Shown here: piece after piece, positions 50,811-64,000 of the stretch | Layout: every line of letters begins with the position of its first letter | How positions within the stretch are numbered: the first letter of the stretch is position 1 | Assembly: GCA_029432815.1 (NCBI GenBank) | Contig: JAROBA010000013.1 | Coordinates: 1 to 64,000, forward strand | Length of the DNA: 64,000 bases | Reading direction: 5' to 3' | DNA from: Pontiellaceae bacterium B1224 | GTDB lineage: Bacteria; Verrucomicrobiota; Kiritimatiellia; Kiritimatiellales; Pontiellaceae | Notes under the pieces: generated by a model | The model's database searches: none | The model's input: only the letters and a program-made list of their open reading frames with translations | Told to the model about the DNA's origin: nothing | Program-made: the position numbers and the translations under genes

Positions 50811-53540
50811 CTATTCAACCTCGGCCGAAAGGCGCAGGTAGCCCTGATCGTTTTCGGTGGGCAGGACTGCGCGCCAGATGTTCCGCCCAGCGGCATCTCT
50901 GCTTCCGGTGTCGATGGTCGTGATGCCGTCCTCCGACCACGCGGCAGGCGCGTTGGTGAGGGTGCCGGAGGCGATAGGATAGAGCGACACGCCGAAGGCC
51001 GCTGGATCCTGATAATAGGTCACGGCAAACACGGCGTTGCCCGGGGTGTCCGCCGCCGCACAGGTAAACAGGTCCGCCGAAGAGTACGCGGTTCCGGGTT
51101 CCAGCCCCGTTGCGTATTTCATCAGGTTGGGAATGCCATCGCCGTCCGGCGTATCGGCGGGATTTCGTTGCCCATCCGGATAGGCCATCGCCCAGGTTCC
51201 GAAACTCGGCAGCATTTCACAGGGATAGCCTTCCCATTCCGGTGTCGCGAAGCCGCCGGCCCCTTCATAAAACTGAAGCGTAAAATCCGAGGAGATATAA
51301 TAGAAGGAGCTTACACCTAAATAGAAGGCGCCACCGCCTAACGTTTCGGGAGCGTCCCCCTCGAAGAGGGCCGTTTGCAGGCTGAAGCTGCCCCGGAAGG
51401 CACCCTCTCCGATGTATGTAACGCTGGAGGGGATCGTCACATTTGCCACGCCGGTGTGGCCGAATGCGTTACGGCCGATGAAGGTGACGCCGTCGGGAAT
51501 CGTAATATCCGTCAGGCTTCCACAAGAATAGAAAGCGCCTTCTTCGATATAGGTAACGCTCTCCGGAATCGTCAGGCTCGTCAGGCCACGACAAAAGACA
51601 AAGGCCAGATAGCCGATGGAAGTGACGCTGTCGGGAATCGTCACGCTCGTGAGGCTGTAGCAACCGAAGAAGGCGTGGTCTGCGATGATACGGACAGGGA
51701 GCCCGTCAACTTCATTCGGAAGAACGAGATTCCCAACCGGATCCCCCCCATCTATCAGCACGGCGCAGGTGCTCGTAAGCAAATAGCTTACCCCGTTACT
51801 TGAAATCGTTGGGATTGAAGTGCCGTCGAAAGAGCCTGTGCCAATGCGCATGACGCCATCGCCGAGCGCCACGCTCGTCAGGCCGGAGCAATCCTTAAAG
51901 GCACTGGAGCCAATGGTTGCGACGCTGTCGGGAATGGTCACGCCTGTCAGGCCGGAGCAGCTGTCGAAGGCCGCTACGCCGATGGAGATTACCCCATCGG
52001 GTATCGTCACGCTCGTAAGATCGGAGCAGCCCGCGAAGGCATCCTCGCCTATGAAGCGGACAGGGAGCCCGCTGATTTCATCCGGGATGGTAACGTTTCC
52101 TGCCACACCACTCCCATCTGTCAGCACGGCGCAGGTCGTTGTAAGGACATAACTCATATCGTTACTTGTAATCGTGGGGATTGAGGTGCCGGTGAAAACG
52201 TCCTCTCCGATGTACGTGACGCCATCGGGAATCGTCAGGCTCGTCAGCCCGGAGCAACCTTCGAATGCTCTGGACTCAATGGTTGCAACGCCGTCGGGTA
52301 TCGTCACGCTCGTCAGGGCGGAACAGCCGGCGAATGTATACCCGCCGATAAGAGTGGCATCGTCGGGAATCGTCACGTTCGTCAAGCTGGAGCAGCCTTC
52401 GTAGGTACCGTCCTCAAGAACTCCGACGCCGTCGGGAATCGTCACGTTCGTTAATTTGGAGCAGCCCCAAAAAGCAGACCATTCGATGCATGTGACGCTG
52501 TCGGGAATGGTCACGCTCGTCAAACCGGAGCAACCATAGAAAAGCCCACCACTGATGACTGCGACGCCGTCGGGAATCGTCATATTTATAAGGCCGGAGC
52601 ATTTTCGAAAGGTGTGAGAGCCGATGAATACGACACCGTCCGGTATGGTTGCGTTCGTCAGGGAATAGCAATTTTCGAAGGCGAAATCTCCGATGGAGAT
52701 AACCTCGTCCGGTATCGTTAAGCCCGTCAGGCCGGTGCAATCCTTAAATGCGCTTTCGCCAATGAAGCGTACCGGGAGCCCGTTGATTTCATCCGGAATG
52801 ACACTATGACCCGCCACCCCGCTTCCATCGGTCAGTACGGCACAGGTCGCTGTGAGTAAATAACTTATACTGTTACTTGTAATCGTAGGCAGTGAGGTGC
52901 CTTTGAAAACATCCCTTCCGAAATGCGTGACGGCGTCGGGAATCGTGATGCTCGTCAACCCGGAGCACCCCTCAAAGGCAGAATCCCCGATTTCTGTGAC
53001 GTCGGTGCCAATCGTCACGTTCGTCAGGGAATGGCACTCTTCAAAGACGGAACCATAAATGGATATCGCGCTGTCCGGAATCGTCACGCTCGTTAAGCCG
53101 GTGCAGCCTTTAAACATTCCAGGTGGAATGATTGCGACGCCGTCGGAAATCGTTACCCCCGTCAACCCCGAACACCCCTCGAAGACGAAACGGCCGATGG
53201 TTCTGATATCGGCGGGAATCGTTACGCCCGTCAACCCGGAGCAACCCACGAAGGCGGAGTCGCCGATGGTTCTGATGCCGGCGGGAATCGCAACGCTCGT
53301 TAAATTGGAACAGCCGGCGAAGGCGTCCGCGCCGATGGCTCTGACCGGGAACCCCTCTATCGTACCAGGAATGGCCAGCTCGCCGATGGCCGAGGTGTCG
53401 CAATCGGTGATGTTGATCTGGTTGCCGGAAATTTCGTAGGTTAAATCACCCCATGTTCCGGCGTGTGCCGTAACCGCAGCCGCCAGCCAGAGCACCACGC
53501 AGGTTGAAAACATTCCATGGCCCATCTTTTTCCCGTTCAT
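50811..53540 (-). CDS. secreted BspA-like leucine-rich-repeat protein
   Basis: The 909 residues start at the ATG at 53540 (GGAGG seven bases upstream) with a signal peptide ending VTAHA. More than twenty LRR_5 repeats of ~23 aa follow (IGDSAFxGCSGLTSVTIPDGV). They are grouped into four super-blocks, three opening with TI.SN..SYLLT.TCAVL and each with GLPVR.I...AF. The C-terminal part has ADTPDGDGIPNLMKYATGLEP and ends GYLRLSAEVE, a tail seen in secreted Verrucomicrobia-type proteins. It is probably attached to or released from the surface, and is likely to bind proteins or host or matrix polymers. Confidence 0.9.
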   Translation of the reverse strand: MNGKKMGHGMFSTCVVLWLAAAVTAHAGTWGDLTYEISGNQINITDCDTSAIGELAIPGTIEGFPVRAIGADAFAGCSNLTSVAIPAGIRTIGDSAFVGCSGLTGVTIPADIRTIGRFVFEGCSGLTGVTISDGVAIIPPGMFKGCTGLTSVTIPDSAISIYGSVFEECHSLTNVTIGTDVTEIGDSAFEGCSGLTSITIPDAVTHFGRDVFKGTSLPTITSNSISYLLTATCAVLTDGSGVAGHSVIPDEINGLPVRFIGESAFKDCTGLTGLTIPDEVISIGDFAFENCYSLTNATIPDGVVFIGSHTFRKCSGLINMTIPDGVAVISGGLFYGCSGLTSVTIPDSVTCIEWSAFWGCSKLTNVTIPDGVGVLEDGTYEGCSSLTNVTIPDDATLIGGYTFAGCSALTSVTIPDGVATIESRAFEGCSGLTSLTIPDGVTYIGEDVFTGTSIPTITSNDMSYVLTTTCAVLTDGSGVAGNVTIPDEISGLPVRFIGEDAFAGCSDLTSVTIPDGVISIGVAAFDSCSGLTGVTIPDSVATIGSSAFKDCSGLTSVALGDGVMRIGTGSFDGTSIPTISSNGVSYLLTSTCAVLIDGGDPVGNLVLPNEVDGLPVRIIADHAFFGCYSLTSVTIPDSVTSIGYLAFVFCRGLTSLTIPESVTYIEEGAFYSCGSLTDITIPDGVTFIGRNAFGHTGVANVTIPSSVTYIGEGAFRGSFSLQTALFEGDAPETLGGGAFYLGVSSFYYISSDFTLQFYEGAGGFATPEWEGYPCEMLPSFGTWAMAYPDGQRNPADTPDGDGIPNLMKYATGLEPGTAYSSADLFTCAAADTPGNAVFAVTYYQDPAAFGVSLYPIASGTLTNAPAAWSEDGITTIDTGSRDAAGRNIWRAVLPTENDQGYLRLSAEVE

Positions 53541-53719
53541 CTTCTGCCTCCGTAGACCCCGCAAGTAAAATGACTGATGCGATAAAATATTTCAGAGCAT
53601 CCCACAGCCTGCTCAAAAAGATCAAAGGAATTATTTTTATAAGCCATTATGCACAAGAGTATAATATCGTCCACAAAAACATCGAGGCATTAGGGAACTG
53701 TGGTGATTCTGCTCGCTGG

Positions 53720-54069: not shown

Positions 54070-56646
54070 CTACTTTCCTTTGTAGGCTTTGAGGTAAATT
54101 TCCTTGAGTTCGCTGATCAGCGGGTAGCGCGGGTTGGCGCCGGTACACTGGTCGTCGAATGCATCCTCAGAGAGCTGATCAAGGTTGGCCATGAATTCTT
54201 TTTCATCCACGCCCGCGTCTTTAATGCTCATCGGAATGTTCAGTTTCATTTTGAGCTCATCGATCGCCTTGATCAGCAGCTTCACCTTGGAATCATCCGT
54301 GGTTCCGCCGAGCTGGAGGTAATCAGCCACCCGGGCATACCGTTCTTTGGCGGTCGGCCAGCTATATTGCGAGAAGGCCGCCTGCTTAATCGGATTATCC
54401 GTGGCATTGAACTTGATCGTTTCATTAATCATCAATGCATTGGCCATTCCGTGCGGCAGGTGATAGGCCGCGCCCAGCTTATGAGCCAGCGAGTGGCAGA
54501 CGCCCAGGAAGGCATTCGCAAAACTCATCCCGGCGAGCGTGGCGGCATAGTGCACTTTTTCGCGCGCTTTGCGATCGCCCGTTGCATAGGACTCCGGCAG
54601 ATATTTGAAGAGCAGACGCAGTGCTTCCAATGCCTGCGGGTTCGTGAACTCGGAGCTGACAATACTGACCATTGCTTCGAGGGCGTGGGTCACAGCATCA
54701 ATACCGCCGAAGGCCGTCAGCGATTTCGGCATGCCCATCACCAGCTCCGGGTCGCAGATCGCCATATCCGGTGTCAGCGCATAGTCCGCAATCGGATATT
54801 TTGCGCCGGTCTCATCGTCGGTCACCACCGCAAACGGCGTCACTTCAGAACCGGTGCCGGACGTGGTCGGAATGCAAACCATCTTCGCTTTCTTTCCAAG
54901 CTCCGGAAACGTGCAGATCCGTTTCTTGATGTCCATAAAGCGCATCGCCAGATCTTCGAACTTGGTTTCCGGGCTTTCATACATCAGCCACATAATCTTC
55001 GCGGCATCCATCGGCGATCCGCCGCCCAGCGCAATAATGACGTCGGGCTTGTAGCCATTCATCATTTTCAGACCGGCTTTTACGGTGCTCAGATCCGGGT
55101 CCGGCTTCACATCGTAGAAGATTTCATAATCCATGTTGATGGCGTCGAGACCATCGGTGACTTTTTCCACCAAACCGAGATCCATCAGGGCCTTATCCGT
55201 CACGATCATCGCGCGCTTGCTTCCGCACAGATCTTTCAAGGCCAGCGGCAGGCAGCCGTATTTGAAGTAAATGTTCTTCGGCACATTGAACCAAAGGGTG
55301 TTTTCGCGGCGTTCCGCAACCGTTTTGACATTCATCAGGTGTTTCACTCCCACATTTTCGCTGACCGAGTTTCCGCCCCAGCTACCGCAGCCGAGCGTCA
55401 AAGAAGGTTCGAGTTTAAAGTTATACAAATCGCCGATGGCACCCTGGGAACTCGGGGTATTCACCAGAATACGACCCGTTTTCATCATGGCCCCGAAATC
55501 GCGAATACGATCCTGGTTCAGCGGATCCGTATAGAGAACCGATGTATGCCCAATACCGCCGGCCGCTACCAGCGCATCGGCTTTAGTCAGCGCGTCTGCA
55601 AAATCGGAAGCTTTGTACAGCCCCAGCACCGGACTCAGCTTTTCATAAGAGAAGGCTTCTTCCGGACCAATCTTCGTCGCTTCGCCGATCAGCACTTTCG
55701 TGTCTTCATTCACTTTAACGCCAGCCAGTTCAGCAATGGCCGCAGCGGGCTGACCAACAATTTTTGCATTCAGATGGCCGTCGACCATGATGGTTGCGCC
55801 GACTTTTTTCTTTTGGGGAGCCGTCAGAATCGTCGCTCCGCGTTTTTTGAATTCGTCCTTAACATCTTCATAGATCTCGTCCACCACGATTACGCTCTGC
55901 TCGGAAGCGCAGATCACACCGTTATCGAAGGTTTTGGAAATCAGGATGCTGTTGACGGCCGTCCGGATGCAGGAGGTTTCATCGATGATTGCCGGCGTAT
56001 TCCCCGCCCCGACCCCCAGCGCCGGTTTACCGGAACTGTAGGCCGCTTTCACCATGCCCGGTCCGCCGGTTGCAAGAATCAACGCGATGTCCGGATGGCT
56101 CATCAGCGCATTACTCAATGCAACGGACGGCGTTTCGATGCAGTCGATCAACCCCGCCGGAGCGCCCGCTTCTTCCGCCGCCTTACGGATGAGGTGCGCG
56201 GCTTCGGCCGTGCAGCCTTTTGCCCGGGGATGCGGGGAGAAAATGATTCCGTTTCGAGTTTTCAGCGAGATCAGTGCTTTAAAAATGGCCGTCGATGTCG
56301 GGTTTGTGGTTGGAACAACCCCGGCAATGATACCGATCGGTTCAGCAATTTTGGTGATCCCGTAGGTTTCGTCATGCTCCAGCACGCCGCAGGTTTTCAT
56401 GTCTTTGTATTTATTGTAGATGAATTCGGATGCGAAGTGGTTCTTCGTTACCTTGTCCTCCACGATGCCCATGCCGGTTTCAGCAACCGCTTTCTTCGCA
56501 AGGTCAATACGCGCCACGTTGGCCGCGATTGCCGCTTTACGGAAAATGGCATCCACCTTTTCCTGCGGGAAATCCGCATATTTAATCTGCGCCTGCTTAA
56601 CGCGGGCTACCATTTCTTCCAACTGTTTCAACTCTGCAGTTGTCAT
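54070..56646 (-). CDS. adhE: bifunctional acetaldehyde-CoA/alcohol dehydrogenase
   Basis: This 858-aa fusion reduces acetyl-CoA to acetaldehyde and then to ethanol, reoxidising two NADH. The N-terminal half is the aldehyde dehydrogenase, with VPTTNPTSTAIFKAL, a GGPGMVKAAYSSGKPALGVG cofactor part and the catalytic Cys in NGVICASEQS. The C-terminal half is an iron alcohol dehydrogenase with ALGGGSPMDAAKIMW, PTTSGTGSEVTPFAV and CHSLAHKLGAAYHLPHG with the metal-binding histidines. Length and domain order are those of E. coli AdhE. AGGAG precedes the ATG. It is divergent from the hydrogenase operon and shares a control region with it. Confidence 0.97.
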   Translation of the reverse strand: MTTAELKQLEEMVARVKQAQIKYADFPQEKVDAIFRKAAIAANVARIDLAKKAVAETGMGIVEDKVTKNHFASEFIYNKYKDMKTCGVLEHDETYGITKIAEPIGIIAGVVPTTNPTSTAIFKALISLKTRNGIIFSPHPRAKGCTAEAAHLIRKAAEEAGAPAGLIDCIETPSVALSNALMSHPDIALILATGGPGMVKAAYSSGKPALGVGAGNTPAIIDETSCIRTAVNSILISKTFDNGVICASEQSVIVVDEIYEDVKDEFKKRGATILTAPQKKKVGATIMVDGHLNAKIVGQPAAAIAELAGVKVNEDTKVLIGEATKIGPEEAFSYEKLSPVLGLYKASDFADALTKADALVAAGGIGHTSVLYTDPLNQDRIRDFGAMMKTGRILVNTPSSQGAIGDLYNFKLEPSLTLGCGSWGGNSVSENVGVKHLMNVKTVAERRENTLWFNVPKNIYFKYGCLPLALKDLCGSKRAMIVTDKALMDLGLVEKVTDGLDAINMDYEIFYDVKPDPDLSTVKAGLKMMNGYKPDVIIALGGGSPMDAAKIMWLMYESPETKFEDLAMRFMDIKKRICTFPELGKKAKMVCIPTTSGTGSEVTPFAVVTDDETGAKYPIADYALTPDMAICDPELVMGMPKSLTAFGGIDAVTHALEAMVSIVSSEFTNPQALEALRLLFKYLPESYATGDRKAREKVHYAATLAGMSFANAFLGVCHSLAHKLGAAYHLPHGMANALMINETIKFNATDNPIKQAAFSQYSWPTAKERYARVADYLQLGGTTDDSKVKLLIKAIDELKMKLNIPMSIKDAGVDEKEFMANLDQLSEDAFDDQCTGANPRYPLISELKEIYLKAYKGK

Positions 56647-56714: not shown

Positions 56715-56736
56715 ATTCGATACTTGAATATCGAAT
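56715..56736. promoter_or_regulatory. 8-6-8 inverted repeat, candidate operator of adhE
   Basis: ATTCGATA-CTTGAA-TATCGAAT has perfect 8-bp arms. It lies just downstream of a candidate minus-strand -10 box and about 70 bp upstream of the adhE start, where a repressor would block transcription. Confidence 0.5.
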
Positions 56737-56775: not shown

Positions 56776-56801
56776 CCCCTTTTTAGATATTTTTTTATCG
56801 A

Positions 56802-56829
56802 TTGACATCTATCGATCTAAAGTTATCTT
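56802..56829 (+). promoter_or_regulatory. candidate promoter of the hydrogenase operon
   Basis: TTGACA (56802-56807) and TATCTT (56824-56829) are 16 bp apart, 25 bp before the first ATG. Two TATCGAT copies overlap or follow the -35 box (56796-56802 and 56810-56816), sharing TATCGA with the adhE dyad. Confidence 0.5.
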
Positions 56830-56854: not shown

Positions 56855-57112
56855 ATGAAAAATTCGATTGTGATCTGCATGGGAAGCTCCTGCTTTGCCC
56901 GCGGCAATAGAGATCACTTAGAACTGATAGAGAACTACTTAGACGGGAACGGCATCACCGCCGAGATCCAGTTTTCAGGCTGTCGATGCCGCGGCGAATG
57001 CGGACGCGGGCCAAACATTGAAATCAACGGCACCCTGCACCACGAAGTCGATACCGGCACGCTGCTCGACCTCATGGAATATTATTTTTCGGCAGTAAGG
57101 GCCGAAGTTTAA
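56855..57112 (+). CDS. thioredoxin-like [2Fe-2S] ferredoxin (first copy)
   Basis: This 85-aa protein is the isolated thioredoxin-fold [2Fe-2S] domain found in NuoE/HndA C-termini. The four ligand cysteines are seen as VICMGSSCF and GCRCRGECGRGP. It would carry electrons to or from a hydrogenase partner. I start at the ATG at 56855 (GGAGA seven bases upstream). It opens the five-gene operon; a second protein of the same length is fourth. No NuoF-like flavoprotein is present, so electron bifurcation cannot be assumed. Confidence 0.88.
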   Translation: MKNSIVICMGSSCFARGNRDHLELIENYLDGNGITAEIQFSGCRCRGECGRGPNIEINGTLHHEVDTGTLLDLMEYYFSAVRAEV

Positions 57113-57165
57113 AGTTTCAGGGTTGCAGAGTTTAAGAGTCGGAACACCGCCGAACCCTTTCTCCC

Positions 57166-57205
57166 CTTGAACCCTTAAACTCTTCAACCTTTCAACTCTT
57201 CAACC
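57166..57205. repeat. five degenerate octamers before the sensory hydrogenase gene
   Basis: CTTGAACC, CTTAAACT, CTTCAACC, TTTCAACT, CTTCAACC follow in one phase of 8 bp. A looser reverse-complement run lies at about 57112-57140, so the spacer could fold back on itself. Confidence 0.8.
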
Positions 57206-57217
57206 AAGAAAACCTCC

Positions 57218-58918
57218 ATGGACCGAAAATATCCCATCTACACCGAAAAGACCGACTGCCGCGATTGCTACAAATGCGTGCGCCGCTGTCCGGTTAAAGC
57301 CATCAAAATTGAAAACAGCCGCGCCACAGTGATTGCCGAACGCTGCATTGCCTGCGGCATCTGCGTTCATGTCTGCCCAGCCGGGGCCAAAAAGGTGCGA
57401 AACGATCTGACCAGAGCAAAAAGCCTTATGAAGCGGAATCCGAGAGTCATCGCTTCGCTCGCTCCGTCATTTGCCAGCGAATGGCCGGAAGTGGCTCCAT
57501 CGGCCATGGCCGGAGCGCTTAAACAACTCGGTTTCCATGCCGTTAGCGAAACCGCACTGGGAGCCGAAGCCGTCACCCGTTCGATTGCCGATTCCATGCA
57601 AACGGCGCGCCCCGGACTTCATATCTCCACCGCCTGCCCGGTAGTGGTGGATCATATTCGAAAATACCGCCCTGAGTTTACCGAAAACCTAACGCCATTC
57701 CTCAGCCCCATGCAGGCGCATGCCAAACTGTTGAAGCAACATTACGGCAATGACTGCCCTGTGGTATTCATTGGCCCCTGCATTGCTAAAAAATGCGAGT
57801 GCGATGAATTTTCCGGTCTGACCGACATTGCCCTCACCTTCAAAGATCTCTTCCAATGGTTGGAAGAAAGAGGGATCGATCCCGCTACTGCCGATCCAGC
57901 GACCTTTGAACCGACCGATGCCGAGCACGGAGCAGTCTATCCAGTAGTCGGTGGCATGAATAAAACGCTGGAAGACTATCATATTCCAAACCTTGAACTT
58001 GTTTCCACCAGTGGAATGGAAGCGATCTTCCAGACCTTGGAAAATCTGGATACCGAAACGCTGACCGACCCCATCTTCCTTGAAGCCCTCGCCTGTCCCG
58101 GAGGATGTATTGGAGGACCGCAGACCAATTCACGCACGCCACAACTGAACGGTGAGCTGGCGATCCGGCGCAACACGCGCAAACACAAGGCTCCCGCCAA
58201 ACCGGCCGGGGCAGTCGAGTTCACCTTTAAACCAACACCTCCCGCAGAAGGTAAGCGGGAGGAATCCGATATTCGCGATGCCCTGCATCGCGTTGGTAAA
58301 TATAAGAATGAGGATGAACTGAACTGCGGCGGTTGCGGCTATGAAACCTGTCGTAATTTTGCCGAGGCCCTGCTCACCCATCAGGCCGAACCGGATATGT
58401 GCCTTTCCTATCTTCGGAAACTGGCCCAGAAAAAAGCCAATGCTTTACTGCGCTGCATGCCTTCCGGCGTGGTCATTGTCGACAGCTCGCTGCACGTGAT
58501 TGAGTGCAACGAAAACTTTGCACGGATGGCCGGACGAGACACCCTGCTGGGCTATGAAGCAAAACCGGGACTCGAAGGGGCTGACCTGCGAAAAATTCTC
58601 CCGTTTGCCGAGCAATTCGAACAGGTAAACCAAACCGGCAGAGAATTTCATACCGAGGCCTATCGCGAAGACGAGCGGCTGCTGAATATCACCATTTTCC
58701 CGATCGATAGCGGAAAGACAGTCGGCGGTATTGTTCTCGATGTCACCCAAACGGAAAACCGACGCGAACTGATTGCTCAGAAAGCCAAACAGGTGATCGA
58801 AAAGAACATGTCCACCGTGCAGGACATCGCCTGCATGCTTGGCGAACACATGGCCGACACCGAAATCCTTCTGCGCTCCATCGCCGAGGACTACGCCGAC
58901 ACAACCGAACCAAAATAA
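57218..58918 (+). CDS. sensory [FeFe]-hydrogenase (HydS-like) with PAS domain
   Basis: The 566 residues comprise: two [4Fe-4S] motifs (CRDCYKCVRRCP at 14-25 and CIACGICVHVCP at 43-54), the H-cluster domain (about 75-310), a single [4Fe-4S]-type region (NCGGCGYETCRNFA with a later Cys), a PAS domain (SGVVIVDSSLHVIECNENFARM), and a short C-terminal helix. H-cluster ligands are Cys140 (STACP), Cys188 (GPCIAKK), and Cys293/Cys297 (ALACPGGCIGG). Position 139, the proton-relay Cys in catalytic enzymes, is Ala, as in known HydS sensors. There is no kinase domain; the next gene is a phosphatase. It therefore probably senses H2 or redox state and signals through that phosphatase. FQWLE and FQTLE mark two TTCCAA palindromes. 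Confidence 0.9.
   Translation: MDRKYPIYTEKTDCRDCYKCVRRCPVKAIKIENSRATVIAERCIACGICVHVCPAGAKKVRNDLTRAKSLMKRNPRVIASLAPSFASEWPEVAPSAMAGALKQLGFHAVSETALGAEAVTRSIADSMQTARPGLHISTACPVVVDHIRKYRPEFTENLTPFLSPMQAHAKLLKQHYGNDCPVVFIGPCIAKKCECDEFSGLTDIALTFKDLFQWLEERGIDPATADPATFEPTDAEHGAVYPVVGGMNKTLEDYHIPNLELVSTSGMEAIFQTLENLDTETLTDPIFLEALACPGGCIGGPQTNSRTPQLNGELAIRRNTRKHKAPAKPAGAVEFTFKPTPPAEGKREESDIRDALHRVGKYKNEDELNCGGCGYETCRNFAEALLTHQAEPDMCLSYLRKLAQKKANALLRCMPSGVVIVDSSLHVIECNENFARMAGRDTLLGYEAKPGLEGADLRKILPFAEQFEQVNQTGREFHTEAYREDERLLNITIFPIDSGKTVGGIVLDVTQTENRRELIAQKAKQVIEKNMSTVQDIACMLGEHMADTEILLRSIAEDYADTTEPK
57851..57865. repeat. TTCCAA-N3-TTGGAA palindrome
   Basis: Exact copy (spacer TGG) in the sensory hydrogenase gene, read as FQWLE; a one-mismatch copy follows at 58028. 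Confidence 0.85.
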
Positions 58919-58991
58919 ATAAACACCAAGACACTAAGAACACGAAGGAGCAGCGACATATCCAAACTTAGAAATCTTCGTGTTTAAAACT

Positions 58992-60167
58992 ATGAAAAGT
59001 CTATTTACAGAGCTGGAATTTTATCAGGTGCGAAAGCACTCGCAGCATACGGCGGGCGATGCCTTTATGGTGCACAAAGACTCGAAAAACAACCGTCTGC
59101 TGACGGTGCTGTCCGATGGTCTGGGCAGCGGCGTGAAAGCCAACATTCTGGCAAACATGACTGCTCGCATGGCAATCAAGTTTGCCGAAACCGACACCGA
59201 CTTTCTTCATTATGCCAAGGTCATTATGAACTCCCTGCCGATTTGCCAGGTGCGCAAAATTGCCTATTCCACATTCACCGTCGTGGATTGCCGCCCCGAC
59301 GGAAGTGTTCATATTGTTGAACAGGGCAACCCGCCTTTTATTCTGCTGCGGCATGGCGAGCCGGTTTATATTCCCTTTAAGGAATACGTCAGCGAACAGG
59401 GCGATTCCCGTAAGCTGCTGGCATATCGTTTCGTAGCACAACCGGAAGACCGAATTATTTTTTTCAGCGATGGGGTAACCGAGTCGGGCATGGGATCGCC
59501 CGGCTATCCGCTGGGCTGGCGCAACAAAGGCTGCGCCGAGTTTTCGCATGGGCTCGTGAAACATGATCCGCAGATCTCCGCCCGGTTGCTGGCCAAACAG
59601 GTGGTACAAGGCGCCCTCCAGCGCGAGCCGGATCGAAAAGCCTATGACGACATTACCTGCGGTGTGCTCTATTTCCGAACCCCGCGCAAAACCCTGCTCG
59701 CTTCCGGGCCACCCTTTTCAGATAAGAAAGACCGTGACTACGCCGATGTAATTCGTAACTTCGACGGATGTAAAATCGTCAGCGGCGGGACCTCTGCCGA
59801 CATCGTCGCCCGCGAATTCGGCGAGGAAATCACAACCGATCTCTTTCGGTTTAAGCGTTCCAACCTTCCACCGGTTTCAAAAATGAACGGCGTTGATCTA
59901 GTGACGGAAGGCATTCTAACCCTGACCGAAACGCTAAACCTGCTCGATGGGAAAAGCCGACCGAATCAGGAAAATGCCGCGGTCTTGCTGTTCGATCAGC
60001 TCGTCAACTCGGATGTGATACACATTCTGGTCGGCACAAAAATCAACCAGGCTCATCAGGACCCGAACCTGCCGATGGAACTGGAAATCCGGCGCAGCCT
60101 GATGCGCCGGATCGCCACCACCCTCGAAGAAACCTATTTAAAAGAAGTCAAACTGGAGTTCATATAA
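58992..60167 (+). CDS. SpoIIE-type PP2C phosphatase
   Basis: This 391-aa protein has a PP2C/SpoIIE phosphatase domain in its first ~220 residues. VLSDGLGSGVKANILANMTA, IIFFSDGVTESGMGS and DDITCGVLYF supply the metal-binding acidic residues. The last ~160 residues, containing DGCKIVSGGTSADIVAREFG, resemble no domain I recognise. I choose the ATG at 58992 over the GTG at 58980 on family grounds; neither has a strong ribosome-binding site. It lies between the sensory hydrogenase and the second ferredoxin, and overlaps the latter's ATG by one base. It is the likely output of the sensor; its phosphoprotein substrate is not in the window. Confidence 0.88.
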   Translation: MKSLFTELEFYQVRKHSQHTAGDAFMVHKDSKNNRLLTVLSDGLGSGVKANILANMTARMAIKFAETDTDFLHYAKVIMNSLPICQVRKIAYSTFTVVDCRPDGSVHIVEQGNPPFILLRHGEPVYIPFKEYVSEQGDSRKLLAYRFVAQPEDRIIFFSDGVTESGMGSPGYPLGWRNKGCAEFSHGLVKHDPQISARLLAKQVVQGALQREPDRKAYDDITCGVLYFRTPRKTLLASGPPFSDKKDRDYADVIRNFDGCKIVSGGTSADIVAREFGEEITTDLFRFKRSNLPPVSKMNGVDLVTEGILTLTETLNLLDGKSRPNQENAAVLLFDQLVNSDVIHILVGTKINQAHQDPNLPMELEIRRSLMRRIATTLEETYLKEVKLEFI

Positions 60168-60424
60168 TGCGTGTAAAAGTATCTATCTGCACCGGCACCA
60201 CCTGCTATCTGATGGGCGGTGCCCATCTATTAACCTTCGATGAAATGCTGGATCCCTGCACCGCTCAGGATGTCGAAATCGTCGGATCGCACTGCCTAGG
60301 CCTCTGCAACAACGAGGAAAACGGCCGGCCGCCGTTTGTGAAGGTGAACGACCATATTATTGCCGATGCCACCCTCAACAAGGTGCTGGATACAGTCCGC
60401 GCCGAACTCGGACTGGAGGTTTAA
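60167..60424 (+). CDS. thioredoxin-like [2Fe-2S] ferredoxin (second copy)
   Basis: This 85-aa protein has SICTGTTCYLMGGAH and GSHCLGLCNNEENGRPP, the four cysteines of the NuoE-type [2Fe-2S] site, and VKVNDHIIADATLNKVLD at the end. It starts on the ATG overlapping the phosphatase stop (TAATG), two bases before the hydrogenase gene. It is a plausible electron partner of that hydrogenase. It is the same size as the first gene of the operon but differs in sequence. Confidence 0.9.
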   Translation: MRVKVSICTGTTCYLMGGAHLLTFDEMLDPCTAQDVEIVGSHCLGLCNNEENGRPPFVKVNDHIIADATLNKVLDTVRAELGLEV

Positions 60425-60426
60425 AC

Positions 60427-61872
60427 ATGTTTCACGACAACAAAGCCAATCGCCTTCGCAAAGAAGTGCTCGTTCGGGTGGCACGCGCCTTTTTCACCGC
60501 TCAACCGGACGATGCCCTGAACCGTATTCCACTGACCATGCGCCCGAAGTCGACTAAGGACTCCTCGCGCTGCTGCATCTATAAAGACCGCGTCGTATTG
60601 AAATACCGAAGCATGGCGGCCCTGGGTTTCTCTGTGGAAAGCGAAACCGATGAACTCAAACCGGTCAGCGCCTATTTCGACGAAGCCCTGCAACGGGACA
60701 AGCCGGTTGATCCGGTGCTGACCGTCATCGATGAAGCCTGCAGCGCCTGCGTTCAGTCGCAATACACCGCCACCAATGCCTGCCGCGGATGTATTGCACG
60801 TTCCTGCGAAGCGGCCTGTCCCAAAGATGCCATTGAATTCCGCGACGGCAAGGCCTGGCTGAATCCGGACAAATGTGTGAACTGCGGACTCTGCATGAAA
60901 GCCTGCCCCTATCACGCCATTATCCGCATTCCAATCCCGTGCGAAGAAGCCTGCCCCGTCGGCGCCATCAGCAAAGATCCGGAAACCGGCCGCGAAGTGA
61001 TTGACCACACTCAATGCACCTACTGCGGAAAATGTTTGAAAGAATGTCCGTTCGCCGCCATTTCCGACCTATCGCAGATGGTCGATGTGCTCAAACTGCT
61101 GAAAGACGGGAATGCCGTGGCCATGATTGCGCCGTCGATCATCGGTCAGCTTCCCGGCTCACTGCCACAACTGATGGCCGCTTTGAAAAAAGCCGGATTC
61201 AGCGATGTGGTCGAAGTGGCCGAAGGTGCCGACGAAACCACGCGCCACGAAAGTGCGGAGTGGGTGGAAAAAATGGCCGAAGGTGAGCGCTTCATGACCA
61301 CCTCCTGTTGCCCGGCCTATATTGAAACCGTCGAAAAACATCTTCCAGAGATTGGAAAATTTGTGTCCGACACGCCCACTCCCATGGCCTATACGGCTTC
61401 CAAGGTTCGGAAAAATTATCCCGAAGCCACGACGGTCTTCATCGGCCCGTGTATTGCCAAGCGGGTGGAAGCCACGAAGAATGCGGATGTGGATTATGTG
61501 CTCACCTTCGAGGAACTCGGAGCCATGCTCGTGGGCGCAGGCATTGATGTCTTTGAATGCGGAGAAGAAGAGATACTGGACCGTGCTTCGCGCGAAGGCC
61601 GCGGATTTGCAGCCAGTAATGGAGTGACCAACGCCGTAAAAGCATTGGCCCCAGACGATGCTGAATTAAAACCAATGCTCGTAGACGGGCTCGATTCAAA
61701 AACCATCCGGCAGATGAAAATGTGGGCAACAAAATCCTGCCCCGGCAATTTTGTGGAAGTGATGTCCTGCGAAGGCGGCTGCATTGCCGGCCCCGGTACG
61801 CTCGGCAATCCGCGCATTGCCAAGAAGCAGCTTAACACCCTCATGGATCAAAGCCCCGGAATCAGCAGGTAA
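60427..61872 (+). CDS. [FeFe]-hydrogenase, group-B-like
   Basis: This 481-aa enzyme reduces protons to H2 or the reverse. After a ~100-aa N-terminal part with SSRCCIYKDR and IDEACSACVQ, ferredoxin-type motifs follow: CRGCIARSCEAACP (119-132), CVNCGLCMKACPYHA (150-163) and CTYCGKCLKECPFAA (197-210). The catalytic domain has TTSCCPAY (Cys294, Cys295, the latter a ligand or relay residue), GPCIAKR (Cys342) and EVMSCEGGCIAGPG (Cys448, Cys452). All H-cluster cysteines are present, so it should be catalytic, unlike the sensor above. Motif order and N-terminus are those of group B1. Electron donors probably are ferredoxin and the 85-aa protein. HydEFG maturases are not in the window. A palindrome is read here as LPEIGK. 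Confidence 0.93.
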   Translation: MFHDNKANRLRKEVLVRVARAFFTAQPDDALNRIPLTMRPKSTKDSSRCCIYKDRVVLKYRSMAALGFSVESETDELKPVSAYFDEALQRDKPVDPVLTVIDEACSACVQSQYTATNACRGCIARSCEAACPKDAIEFRDGKAWLNPDKCVNCGLCMKACPYHAIIRIPIPCEEACPVGAISKDPETGREVIDHTQCTYCGKCLKECPFAAISDLSQMVDVLKLLKDGNAVAMIAPSIIGQLPGSLPQLMAALKKAGFSDVVEVAEGADETTRHESAEWVEKMAEGERFMTTSCCPAYIETVEKHLPEIGKFVSDTPTPMAYTASKVRKNYPEATTVFIGPCIAKRVEATKNADVDYVLTFEELGAMLVGAGIDVFECGEEEILDRASREGRGFAASNGVTNAVKALAPDDAELKPMLVDGLDSKTIRQMKMWATKSCPGNFVEVMSCEGGCIAGPGTLGNPRIAKKQLNTLMDQSPGISR

Positions 61873-62093: not shown

Positions 62094-62846
62094 CTAGTCA
62101 ACGGTCAGGCCGTATTTCCGGAAAACGTCGGCAAAGTGCTCGACCTCTTCGGGCTCGGGAACGCGGGTTTCGGAGAGGCGGTAAGGCAGATCATATTTTT
62201 TCCACTTCCACTCGCCCATTTTATGGAACGGAAGCAGTTCGACCTTTTGCACATTGCCCATGGCGGCCGCCCATTTGGCAAGCTTCCGCATGCAGTGCAC
62301 GCGGTCGTTCAGTTGCGGCACAATTACATAGCGCAGGTGCACAGGCTTTCCGATCTCCGCCAGGTATTCCGCAAAGGCAACGGTATTTTCATTCGATTCA
62401 CCGGTGATGATCTGATGCATATTGGCGTTCACACTCTTTACATCGAGTAAGAACAGATCGGTTAAATTAATGATCCGTTTCGCCGTATCGGTCAGAAGCG
62501 AAAAGCCGCTGGTATCGACAACCGTGTGGATGCCTTCTTCCTTACAAAGCATCAGCAGCGCTTCCAGAAACCGCGGGCGGCTCATAGGCTCACCCCCGGA
62601 AAAGGTGACACCACCGCCAGAGCTTTTCATGAAGTTTTTATACTTCCGAATCTCGGAAAAAACTTCACCTGCCGTCGTTTCGTCACCTGCTCCGAATTCC
62701 CAGGATTCGGGATTGTGACAATAGAGACAGCGCAACGGACAGCCCTGTAAGAACACCACAAAGCGGAGCCCCGGACCATCCACCGTCCCGCAACTCTCAT
62801 AGGAGTTGATCCGTCCCCGCTCTTCTTTGGCTTCCTGTAATGTCAT
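62094..62846 (-). CDS. pflA: pyruvate formate-lyase activating enzyme
   Basis: This 250-aa radical-SAM enzyme installs the glycyl radical on PflB. INSYESCGTVDGPGLRFV and LQGCPLRCLYCHNPESWEFG hold the CxxxCxxC iron-sulfur ligands, and SGGGVTFSGGEP and VDTSGF are typical. I start at the ATG at 62846 because the motif position then matches PflA (about 246-265 aa); the frame is open further upstream to 62984, across the pflB stop, but those residues are low-complexity and not family-like. It follows pflB by 88 bp. Confidence 0.93.
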   Translation of the reverse strand: MTLQEAKEERGRINSYESCGTVDGPGLRFVVFLQGCPLRCLYCHNPESWEFGAGDETTAGEVFSEIRKYKNFMKSSGGGVTFSGGEPMSRPRFLEALLMLCKEEGIHTVVDTSGFSLLTDTAKRIINLTDLFLLDVKSVNANMHQIITGESNENTVAFAEYLAEIGKPVHLRYVIVPQLNDRVHCMRKLAKWAAAMGNVQKVELLPFHKMGEWKWKKYDLPYRLSETRVPEPEEVEHFADVFRKYGLTVD

Positions 62847-62934
62847 GGACGTGAATGTCGAATATCGGACAAGAAATGTCGAACTCCGAAGGCCTTCATT
62901 ATTCAACATTCCTCGTTCGATATGCTGCGGTTCT
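62847..62934. other. pflB-pflA spacer with degenerate repeats
   Basis: The 88 bp consist largely of imperfect copies of AATGTCGAA/ATTCGACAT-like words (GAATGTCGAATATCGG, AAATGTCGAACTCCG, CGTTCGATATG). There is no hairpin with T tract, so the two genes may be cotranscribed. Confidence 0.5.
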
Positions 62935-64000
62935 TTACATCCGTTCGTGGAAAGTACGATTGATGACGTCGAGTTGCTGTTCACGGGTCAGACGTGTGAA
63001 GTTCACCGCATAGCCCGAAACACGGATCGTGAGTTGCGGATAAAGTTCCGGATGTTCCATGGCATCTTCAAGCATTTCGCGGTCGAATACATTCACATTA
63101 ATGTGCTGACCGCCTTCCATGAAATAGCCGTCGAGCAGGGCCACCAGATTCTGAAAACGCAACGCTGCAGTTTTTCCCAGTGCCTTCGGGACAATGGAAA
63201 ACGTGTAGGAAATCCCATCCTCCGCATCATCATACGGCAGTTTGGCGACAGAAGCCATGGAAGCAATTGAACCTCTCACATCGCGGCCATGCATCGGGTT
63301 TGCTCCGGGAGCAAACGGTTCGCCGGCCTTACGCCCGTCGGGGGTATTGCCGGTTTTTTTGCCGTAGACGACGTTGGAGGTGATGGTGAGAACCGACATA
63401 GTGGCTTCTGCATTGCGATAGGTTTTGTGCTTCCGCAGTTCGGCCATGAAGCCCTGCACCAGCTCGACTGCGATTTGATCGACCCGGTCGTCATTATTTC
63501 CATAGGCTGGAAAATCGCCTTCAATTTCATAATCAACTGCCAAACCGCTTGTTGCATCGCGAATGACTTTCACCTTCGCATATTTCATGGCGGAAAAGGC
63601 ATCGGCCACAACCGACAGGCCGGCAATCCCCCCGGCTAATGTGCGGTGCACTTCGGCATCGTGCAGGGCCATCTGAATACGCTCATAGGCATATTTATCG
63701 TGCATAAAATGAATTACATTGAGCGTATTCACATAGAGCGCAGCCAACCAGGACTGCATCATCTTAAATTTGGCCATCACCCGGTCATAGTCCAGATATT
63801 CAGACGTAATGATTCCTATATCCGGGCCGACCTGCTTGCCGCTCTTGTCGTCGATGCCGCCGTTGATGGCATAAAGGAGCGCCTTCGCCAGATTACAGCG
63901 TGCCCCGAAAAACTGCATCTGCTTCCCGATCGGCATGGCGGACACACAGCAGGCAATGCCATAGTCATCGCCGAACTTCGGACGCATCAGCTCGTCACTT
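62935..64000 (-). CDS. pflB: pyruvate formate-lyase (C-terminal part)
   Basis: The gene enters at the right edge and its last ~354 codons are visible. The enzyme cleaves pyruvate with CoA to acetyl-CoA and formate. [22 protein letters not shown] contains the two active-site cysteines (418-419 in E. coli). [21 protein letters not shown] carries the glycine that bears the radical. [25 protein letters not shown] and [16 protein letters not shown]-like positions agree with PflB. With AdhE and the hydrogenases it gives ethanol, formate and H2 from pyruvate. Confidence 0.96.

Follow-up and report, generated by a model that had tools for sequence, protein, structure and literature searches.

A sensory [FeFe]-hydrogenase gene paired with a SpoIIE-type phosphatase gene, next to probable Rex operators, in a Pontiellaceae bacterium

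In the 64,000-nucleotide stretch analyzed here (the window; positions 1-64,000 of contig JAROBA010000013.1, Pontiellaceae bacterium B1224, GCA_029432815.1), the gene for HydS, a sensory [FeFe]-hydrogenase, is followed by genes for a SpoIIE-type PP2C phosphatase and a second hydrogenase, HydA (Table 1). We consider it fairly probable that this is an operon of the group C3, hfs type in which HydS would signal through its PAS domain and an adjoining helix to the phosphatase, with Rex controlling transcription. An initial annotation of the region had placed a ferredoxin and a full catalytic hydrogenase after the phosphatase. Both are present, and HydA is a full-length NCBIfam match to TIGR04105 (534 bits against a cut-off of 450) whose translation retains the relay cysteine in a TSCCP motif. 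The type of the ferredoxin gene had to be amended, as both small ferredoxins are thioredoxin-like [2Fe-2S] proteins and the other one precedes HydS. The closest named relatives are Pontiellaceae bacterium B12227, with a phosphatase that is 87% identical, and Pontiella sulfatireligans.

Table 1. Genes and promoter elements of the sensor locus, in window coordinates.
Feature	Position	Strand	Evidence or remark
adhE, bifunctional aldehyde/alcohol dehydrogenase	54070..56646	-	NCBIfam NF010378, 1391 bits; divergent from sensor operon
Palindrome TCGATACTTGAATATCGA, probable Rex operator, copy 1	56717..56734	.	exact TCGAT-N8-ATCGA match; conserved in relatives
Palindrome TCGATTGACATCTATCGA, probable Rex operator, copy 2	56798..56815	.	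exact TCGAT-N8-ATCGA match; conserved in relatives
Thioredoxin-like [2Fe-2S] ferredoxin before HydS (HfsA position)	56855..57112	+	PF01257, E=4.9e-08
HydS, PAS-bearing sensory [FeFe]-hydrogenase, 566 aa	57218..58918	+	Fe_hyd_lg_C, E=3.6e-47; PF04060; PAS_9
SpoIIE-type PP2C phosphatase, 395 aa	58980..60167	+	SpoIIE PF07228, E=1.3e-11
Second thioredoxin-like [2Fe-2S] ferredoxin, before HydA	60167..60424	+	PF01257, E=5.5e-05, slightly under cut-off; position conserved
HydA, group B [FeFe]-hydrogenase (HfsD / R. albus HydA2 counterpart)	60427..61872	+	TIGR04105
pflA, pyruvate formate-lyase activating enzyme	62094..62984	-	TIGR02493, 295 bits
pflB	62935-63999	-	continues past window end

HydS comprises a 2x[4Fe-4S] ferredoxin region, an H-cluster domain (residues 76-304), a C-terminal [4Fe-4S] motif (370-395), a PAS domain (about 409-512) and a terminal helix (about 515-555), and its Pfam matches to PF02906, PF04060 and PAS_9 (E=3.2e-7) occur in that order. 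It had been described as keeping all H-cluster cysteines and as having alanine at the proton-relay position (equivalent to C299 of CpI), and both statements are borne out by the motifs L1 (STACP), L2 (GPCIAKK) and L3 (LACPGGCIGGP). The further statement that HydS ends in PAS with no kinase holds in part: the Pfam search of the protein found no kinase domain, but the PAS domain is not the end, as a conserved helix of about 40 residues follows it. The relay alanine cannot be regarded as a special feature of the window protein, since alanine is the commonest residue at this position among 79 aligned HydS sequences (Ala in 59, Asn in 13 and Cys in 2, R. albus being one of the Cys cases), and it has been reported in about 43% of sensory enzymes (PMC10055695). 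It marks the family instead, and taken alone it does not mean that HydS is inactive, because the alanine-bearing T. maritima HydS is active, though slower than catalytic enzymes (PMC10055695). A search of PDB sequences with HydS returned catalytic hydrogenases, ferredoxins and other Fe-S proteins, and no sensory hydrogenase.

The next gene product had been read as a PP2C phosphatase with an unrecognized C-terminal domain of about 160 residues, and this reading stands, as the Pfam SpoIIE match spans residues 37-230 and the remainder is without a match. The metal-site residues, whose lack would have refuted the initial annotation, were found: D27, D46, D164, D223 and D224 align with SpoIIE and are invariant in 59 homologues. 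The AlphaFold2 model (predicted local distance difference test, pLDDT, 88) is matched by Foldseek to SpoIIE and other PP2C structures, and its first strand begins at residue 9, so that no regulatory region precedes the catalytic domain; an ATG at 58992 is as good a start as the one at 58980. Modelled alone, the tail (residues about 233-395) forms an alpha/beta domain with a pLDDT of 90. In VIA-align its best nine rows are all NuoG, FwdB or FhcB (Z 8.4-10.8, the next row reaching 6.9), but this likeness to NuoG and the formylmethanofuran dehydrogenase B type is only an unproven lead, because Foldseek gave no match for the tail at E <= 0.001. Nor is the tail a peculiarity of the window genome, a possibility that we rejected because every HydS-linked phosphatase examined has it. 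A scan of viral contigs with the phosphatase as query gave no match.

The pairing of the two genes was followed in two samples, namely 80 phosphatase loci fetched from public genomes and, separately, a set of 289 genomes of the phylum with 98 phosphatase loci. In each of the 80 fetched loci the phosphatase is preceded by HydS, and a [2Fe-2S] gene precedes HydS in nearly all of them where the contig extends far enough. In the phylum set, HydS is directly upstream on the same strand in 93 of the 98 loci, and all 76 genomes with a full HydS have the phosphatase, which is present in none of the 13 genomes with only shorter HydS-like matches (in one of these, G016, the locus is truncated where the contig ends). 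The two genes are thus almost inseparable, and some lineages have two such loci. Several Bacteroidales loci (L071, L072, L090, L091 and others) also encode a second HydS-like protein of about 660 residues, on the opposite strand near the HydS-phosphatase pair and beside other hydrogenase-like genes.

The five phosphatase loci without an adjoining upstream HydS led to cassettes that contain no hydrogenase. In three genomes placed only to phylum, the same as that of the window (G182, G326 and G004), a [2Fe-2S] protein, a PAS protein of about 165 residues ending in the helix and a tailed phosphatase are encoded in close spacing on one strand (L149:5626-7595, L160:4420-6369 and L150:6723-9461). 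G182, a 99% complete genome with its cassette on L149, is devoid of any [FeFe]-hydrogenase, while G326 has one elsewhere and G004 has three; in G004 the gene next to the cassette is rex. The PAS proteins of these cassettes share with HydS the terminal motif V-x-K/H-x-M-x-x-V/A-Q-E/D-I-A-x-L-L-G-E-x-x-A-E/D-T. In HydS itself this helix is the best-conserved part: in one alignment of the 79 sequences its mean conservation is 3.02 bits, whereas the H-domain reaches 2.36 and PAS 2.26. Because of this conservation, its recurrence in hydrogenase-free PAS proteins and the absence of any region before the phosphatase catalytic domain, the helix is the best candidate for, and the likely site of, contact with the phosphatase. 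By the same comparison, the hydrogenase domain is likely a swappable input onto a PAS-helix protein. More tentatively, and with the balance of our judgment slightly against it, the [2Fe-2S] protein, PAS-helix protein and tailed PP2C phosphatase may form a general redox-signalling cassette, on which the sensory hydrogenase would be one of several grafted inputs and whose hydrogenase-free forms would occur in bacteria without any [FeFe]-hydrogenase.

The region between adhE and the first [2Fe-2S] gene contains two copies of TCGAT-N8-ATCGA, and copy 2 overlaps a TTGACA element resembling a -35 box (56802-56807, read by eye). An alignment of this region from the window and seven relatives at the genus and order level has in all eight sequences a common ATCGATTGAC-N4-ATCGAT block that contains the palindrome. 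The whole genome holds eight copies of TCGAT-N8-ATCGA, whereas the reversed control pattern does not occur in it. Copies outside the window precede a hydC-hydB-hydA operon, rex (54 bp ahead) and serC, the last of these named from its translation without a family search (G000:C119:3835, C132:40257 and C175:4974, in an order not matched to the genes). Among six close rex genes, four have the palindrome upstream (those of the window genome, G035, G050 and G438), and rex adjoins the sensor operon in G050 and L040 and lies across pflBA from it in L039 and G035. G081 has three tandem copies of the palindrome 14 bp apart (L165:701-746). A Rex site with the 5-8-5 layout of this palindrome has been predicted before hfsABCD and adhE of T. 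saccharolyticum (PMC5886521). Taken together, these sites suggest that Rex probably represses adhE and the sensor operon through the two palindromes, and that the palindrome marks a probable Rex regulon of adhE, the HydS operon, hydCBA, serC and rex. The exact palindrome occurs in 4 of 71 upstream regions from many phyla (0.07 expected), and none of the Bacteroidales or alphaproteobacterial loci among these regions has it, so that little was gained outside loci of the Kiritimatiellae and Lentisphaeria type. On these counts, TCGAT-N8-ATCGA is best described as a putative lineage-specific operator.

The gene set is of a type already known, and the window holds its Pontiellaceae version, since the R. 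albus cluster and hfsABCD carry the same content. In HydDB, group C3 bears the label "phosphatase-linked (putative)" (PMC5037454), and the window shares with this group, as judged from the class description and with no excluding difference found, a PAS-bearing sensory hydrogenase and a linked Ser/Thr phosphatase. Coupling of such a sensor, for H2 or redox state, to a phosphatase has likewise been published as the hypothesis for group C3/HydS (PMC5037454, PMC6776011). For R. albus, an eight-gene cluster with a group C hydrogenase, PAS, a Ser/Thr phosphatase, a hydrogenase and an alcohol dehydrogenase has been described, with direct H2 sensing proposed, and it goes down 111-fold when an H2-consuming partner is co-cultured (PMC6776011). 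In R. albus 7 (pRUMAL01, L119) the order is rex-adhE-2Fe2S-2Fe2S-HydS-SpoIIE-HydA2. The gene set is as in the window, with identities of 33% for HydS, 30% for the phosphatase along almost the whole protein, tail included, and 38% for HydA2 over the aligned region, but the R. albus protein has a relay cysteine (SSCCH) rather than alanine, both ferredoxins stand ahead of HydS, and there is an extra phosphotransferase gene. This phosphotransferase-like gene (L119:9058-9807), near the phosphatase and absent from the window, encodes a possible kinase partner. R. albus HydA2 (L119:13187-14623), labelled group A1 in the literature (PMC6776011), reaches 577 bits with TIGR04105, the model for group B, for which the cut-off is 450. 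The Thermoanaerobacterium hfsABCD operon, with HydS-like HfsB, the serine phosphatase HfsC and HfsD (PMC5707799, PMC11837493), the last called group B (PMC8924675), has the 2Fe-2S protein, HydS, phosphatase and group B hydrogenase in the same order and a predicted Rex site upstream (PMC5886521). The window differs from it in having an adjacent divergent adhE, a second [2Fe-2S] gene before HydA and a probable Rex half-site of TCGAT instead of TTGTT.

Our comparisons lead us to propose that the H-cluster and Fe-S clusters of HydS would respond to H2, to reduced ferredoxin or to both, and that the resulting change would pass to the PAS domain and then to the conserved helix, which may dock on the phosphatase and alter its activity in one direction or the other. 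SpoIIE, RsbP and RsbU phosphatases are switched through helices beside the PP2C domain. The window phosphatase has the PP2C fold and metal residues of these Bacillus proteins, but it differs from them in its C-terminal alpha/beta domain and in leaving the sensory parts and helix to another protein, HydS. The pair would therefore resemble RsbP and RsbU, in which PAS or other sensory parts act via a helix on PP2C, split over two proteins. The phosphatase would then dephosphorylate some protein, the group B hydrogenase of the same operon would evolve H2 from reduced ferredoxin, and Rex, probably binding its two sites, would repress the operon and divergent adhE so that the set is made at high NADH/NAD+. 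Several observations weigh against parts of this proposal: in TamHydS, a group D relative, H2 leaves the redox state of the C-terminal cluster unchanged (PMC13104023); in Acetoanaerobium noterae HydS lies about 880 kb from the phosphatase; and Bacteroidales-type HydS is 44% identical to the window protein in the helix against 29-39% in other regions, a modest excess. As for the operator, three of the eight genomic copies fall within genes and seem to be due to chance, and no palindrome was found near rex in G081 or in G087, which has neither HydS nor the phosphatase.

Where the signal goes after the phosphatase, and what it is, can be read in other ways. The initial annotation had proposed an H2 or redox sensor that controls protein phosphorylation and so the surrounding fermentation genes; gene linkage strongly supports the sensor-phosphatase coupling, but not the control of adhE and pfl by the pair, for which the probable Rex operators offer a more direct common regulator. 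It is quite unlikely that adhE, pfl and hydA are under direct transcriptional control of the pair, through a dedicated transcription factor or anti-sigma system that is dephosphorylated. Such control would fit the strong regulation of the R. albus cluster with H2 (PMC6776011) and the finding that deletion of hfsB in T. saccharolyticum raises adhE expression and ethanol yield, with wild-type hfsC and hfsD required for high yield (PMC5707799), but the sensor operon contains no regulator, STAS or anti-sigma gene. A search for STAS/HPK partners showed that STAS and anti-sigma type domains do exist in the genome, but the STAS/HATPase genes found near SpoIIE genes adjoin other SpoIIE genes. Moreover, because two probable Rex operator copies lie between adhE and HydS, Rex would explain the neighboring adhE more directly than the sensor-phosphatase pair does, and would account for the co-regulation.

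The absence of a transcription factor from the operon and the frequent linkage to adhE and hydA would also suit a phosphatase that targets a fermentation enzyme (e.g., AdhE, Pfl or the group B hydrogenase), giving H2 feedback on flux with transcription left to Rex, and the large family-specific tail could select such a target. We nevertheless regard this as unlikely, as the Bacteroidales-type and hydrogenase-free cassettes have neither adhE nor a group B hydA beside the phosphatase. No kinase or substrate for the phosphatase was found. A more doubtful than improbable alternative is that HydS is just one electron feed into a general redox switch, which would read the redox state of the small [2Fe-2S] protein or ferredoxin and not H2. 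The [2Fe-2S] gene is indeed kept both with HydS and in the hydrogenase-free cassettes, and G182 has a cassette without any [FeFe]-hydrogenase, but there are only three hydrogenase-free examples, and in most cassettes the H-cluster domain is complete and its ligands are intact. Signalling from HydS through PAS and helix to the phosphatase, with Rex acting on transcription, is thus the reading that we prefer.

Unrelated to the hydrogenase locus, the window also encodes, at 50811-53564, a 917-residue leucine-rich (BspA-like) repeat protein with an N-terminal signal-like stretch, as judged from its translation only.

The signal output of sensory [FeFe]-hydrogenases has so far rested on hypothesis. 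What is new here is the near-obligate pairing of HydS with the phosphatase, the conserved helix that HydS shares with hydrogenase-free cassettes, and the probable Rex operator, and together the pairing counts, the common helix and the operator turn a vague link between PAS and phosphatase into one that can be tested. Since mutating hfsB increases the ethanol yield of several thermophiles (PMC5707799), knowledge of how this sensor is wired is also of practical use.

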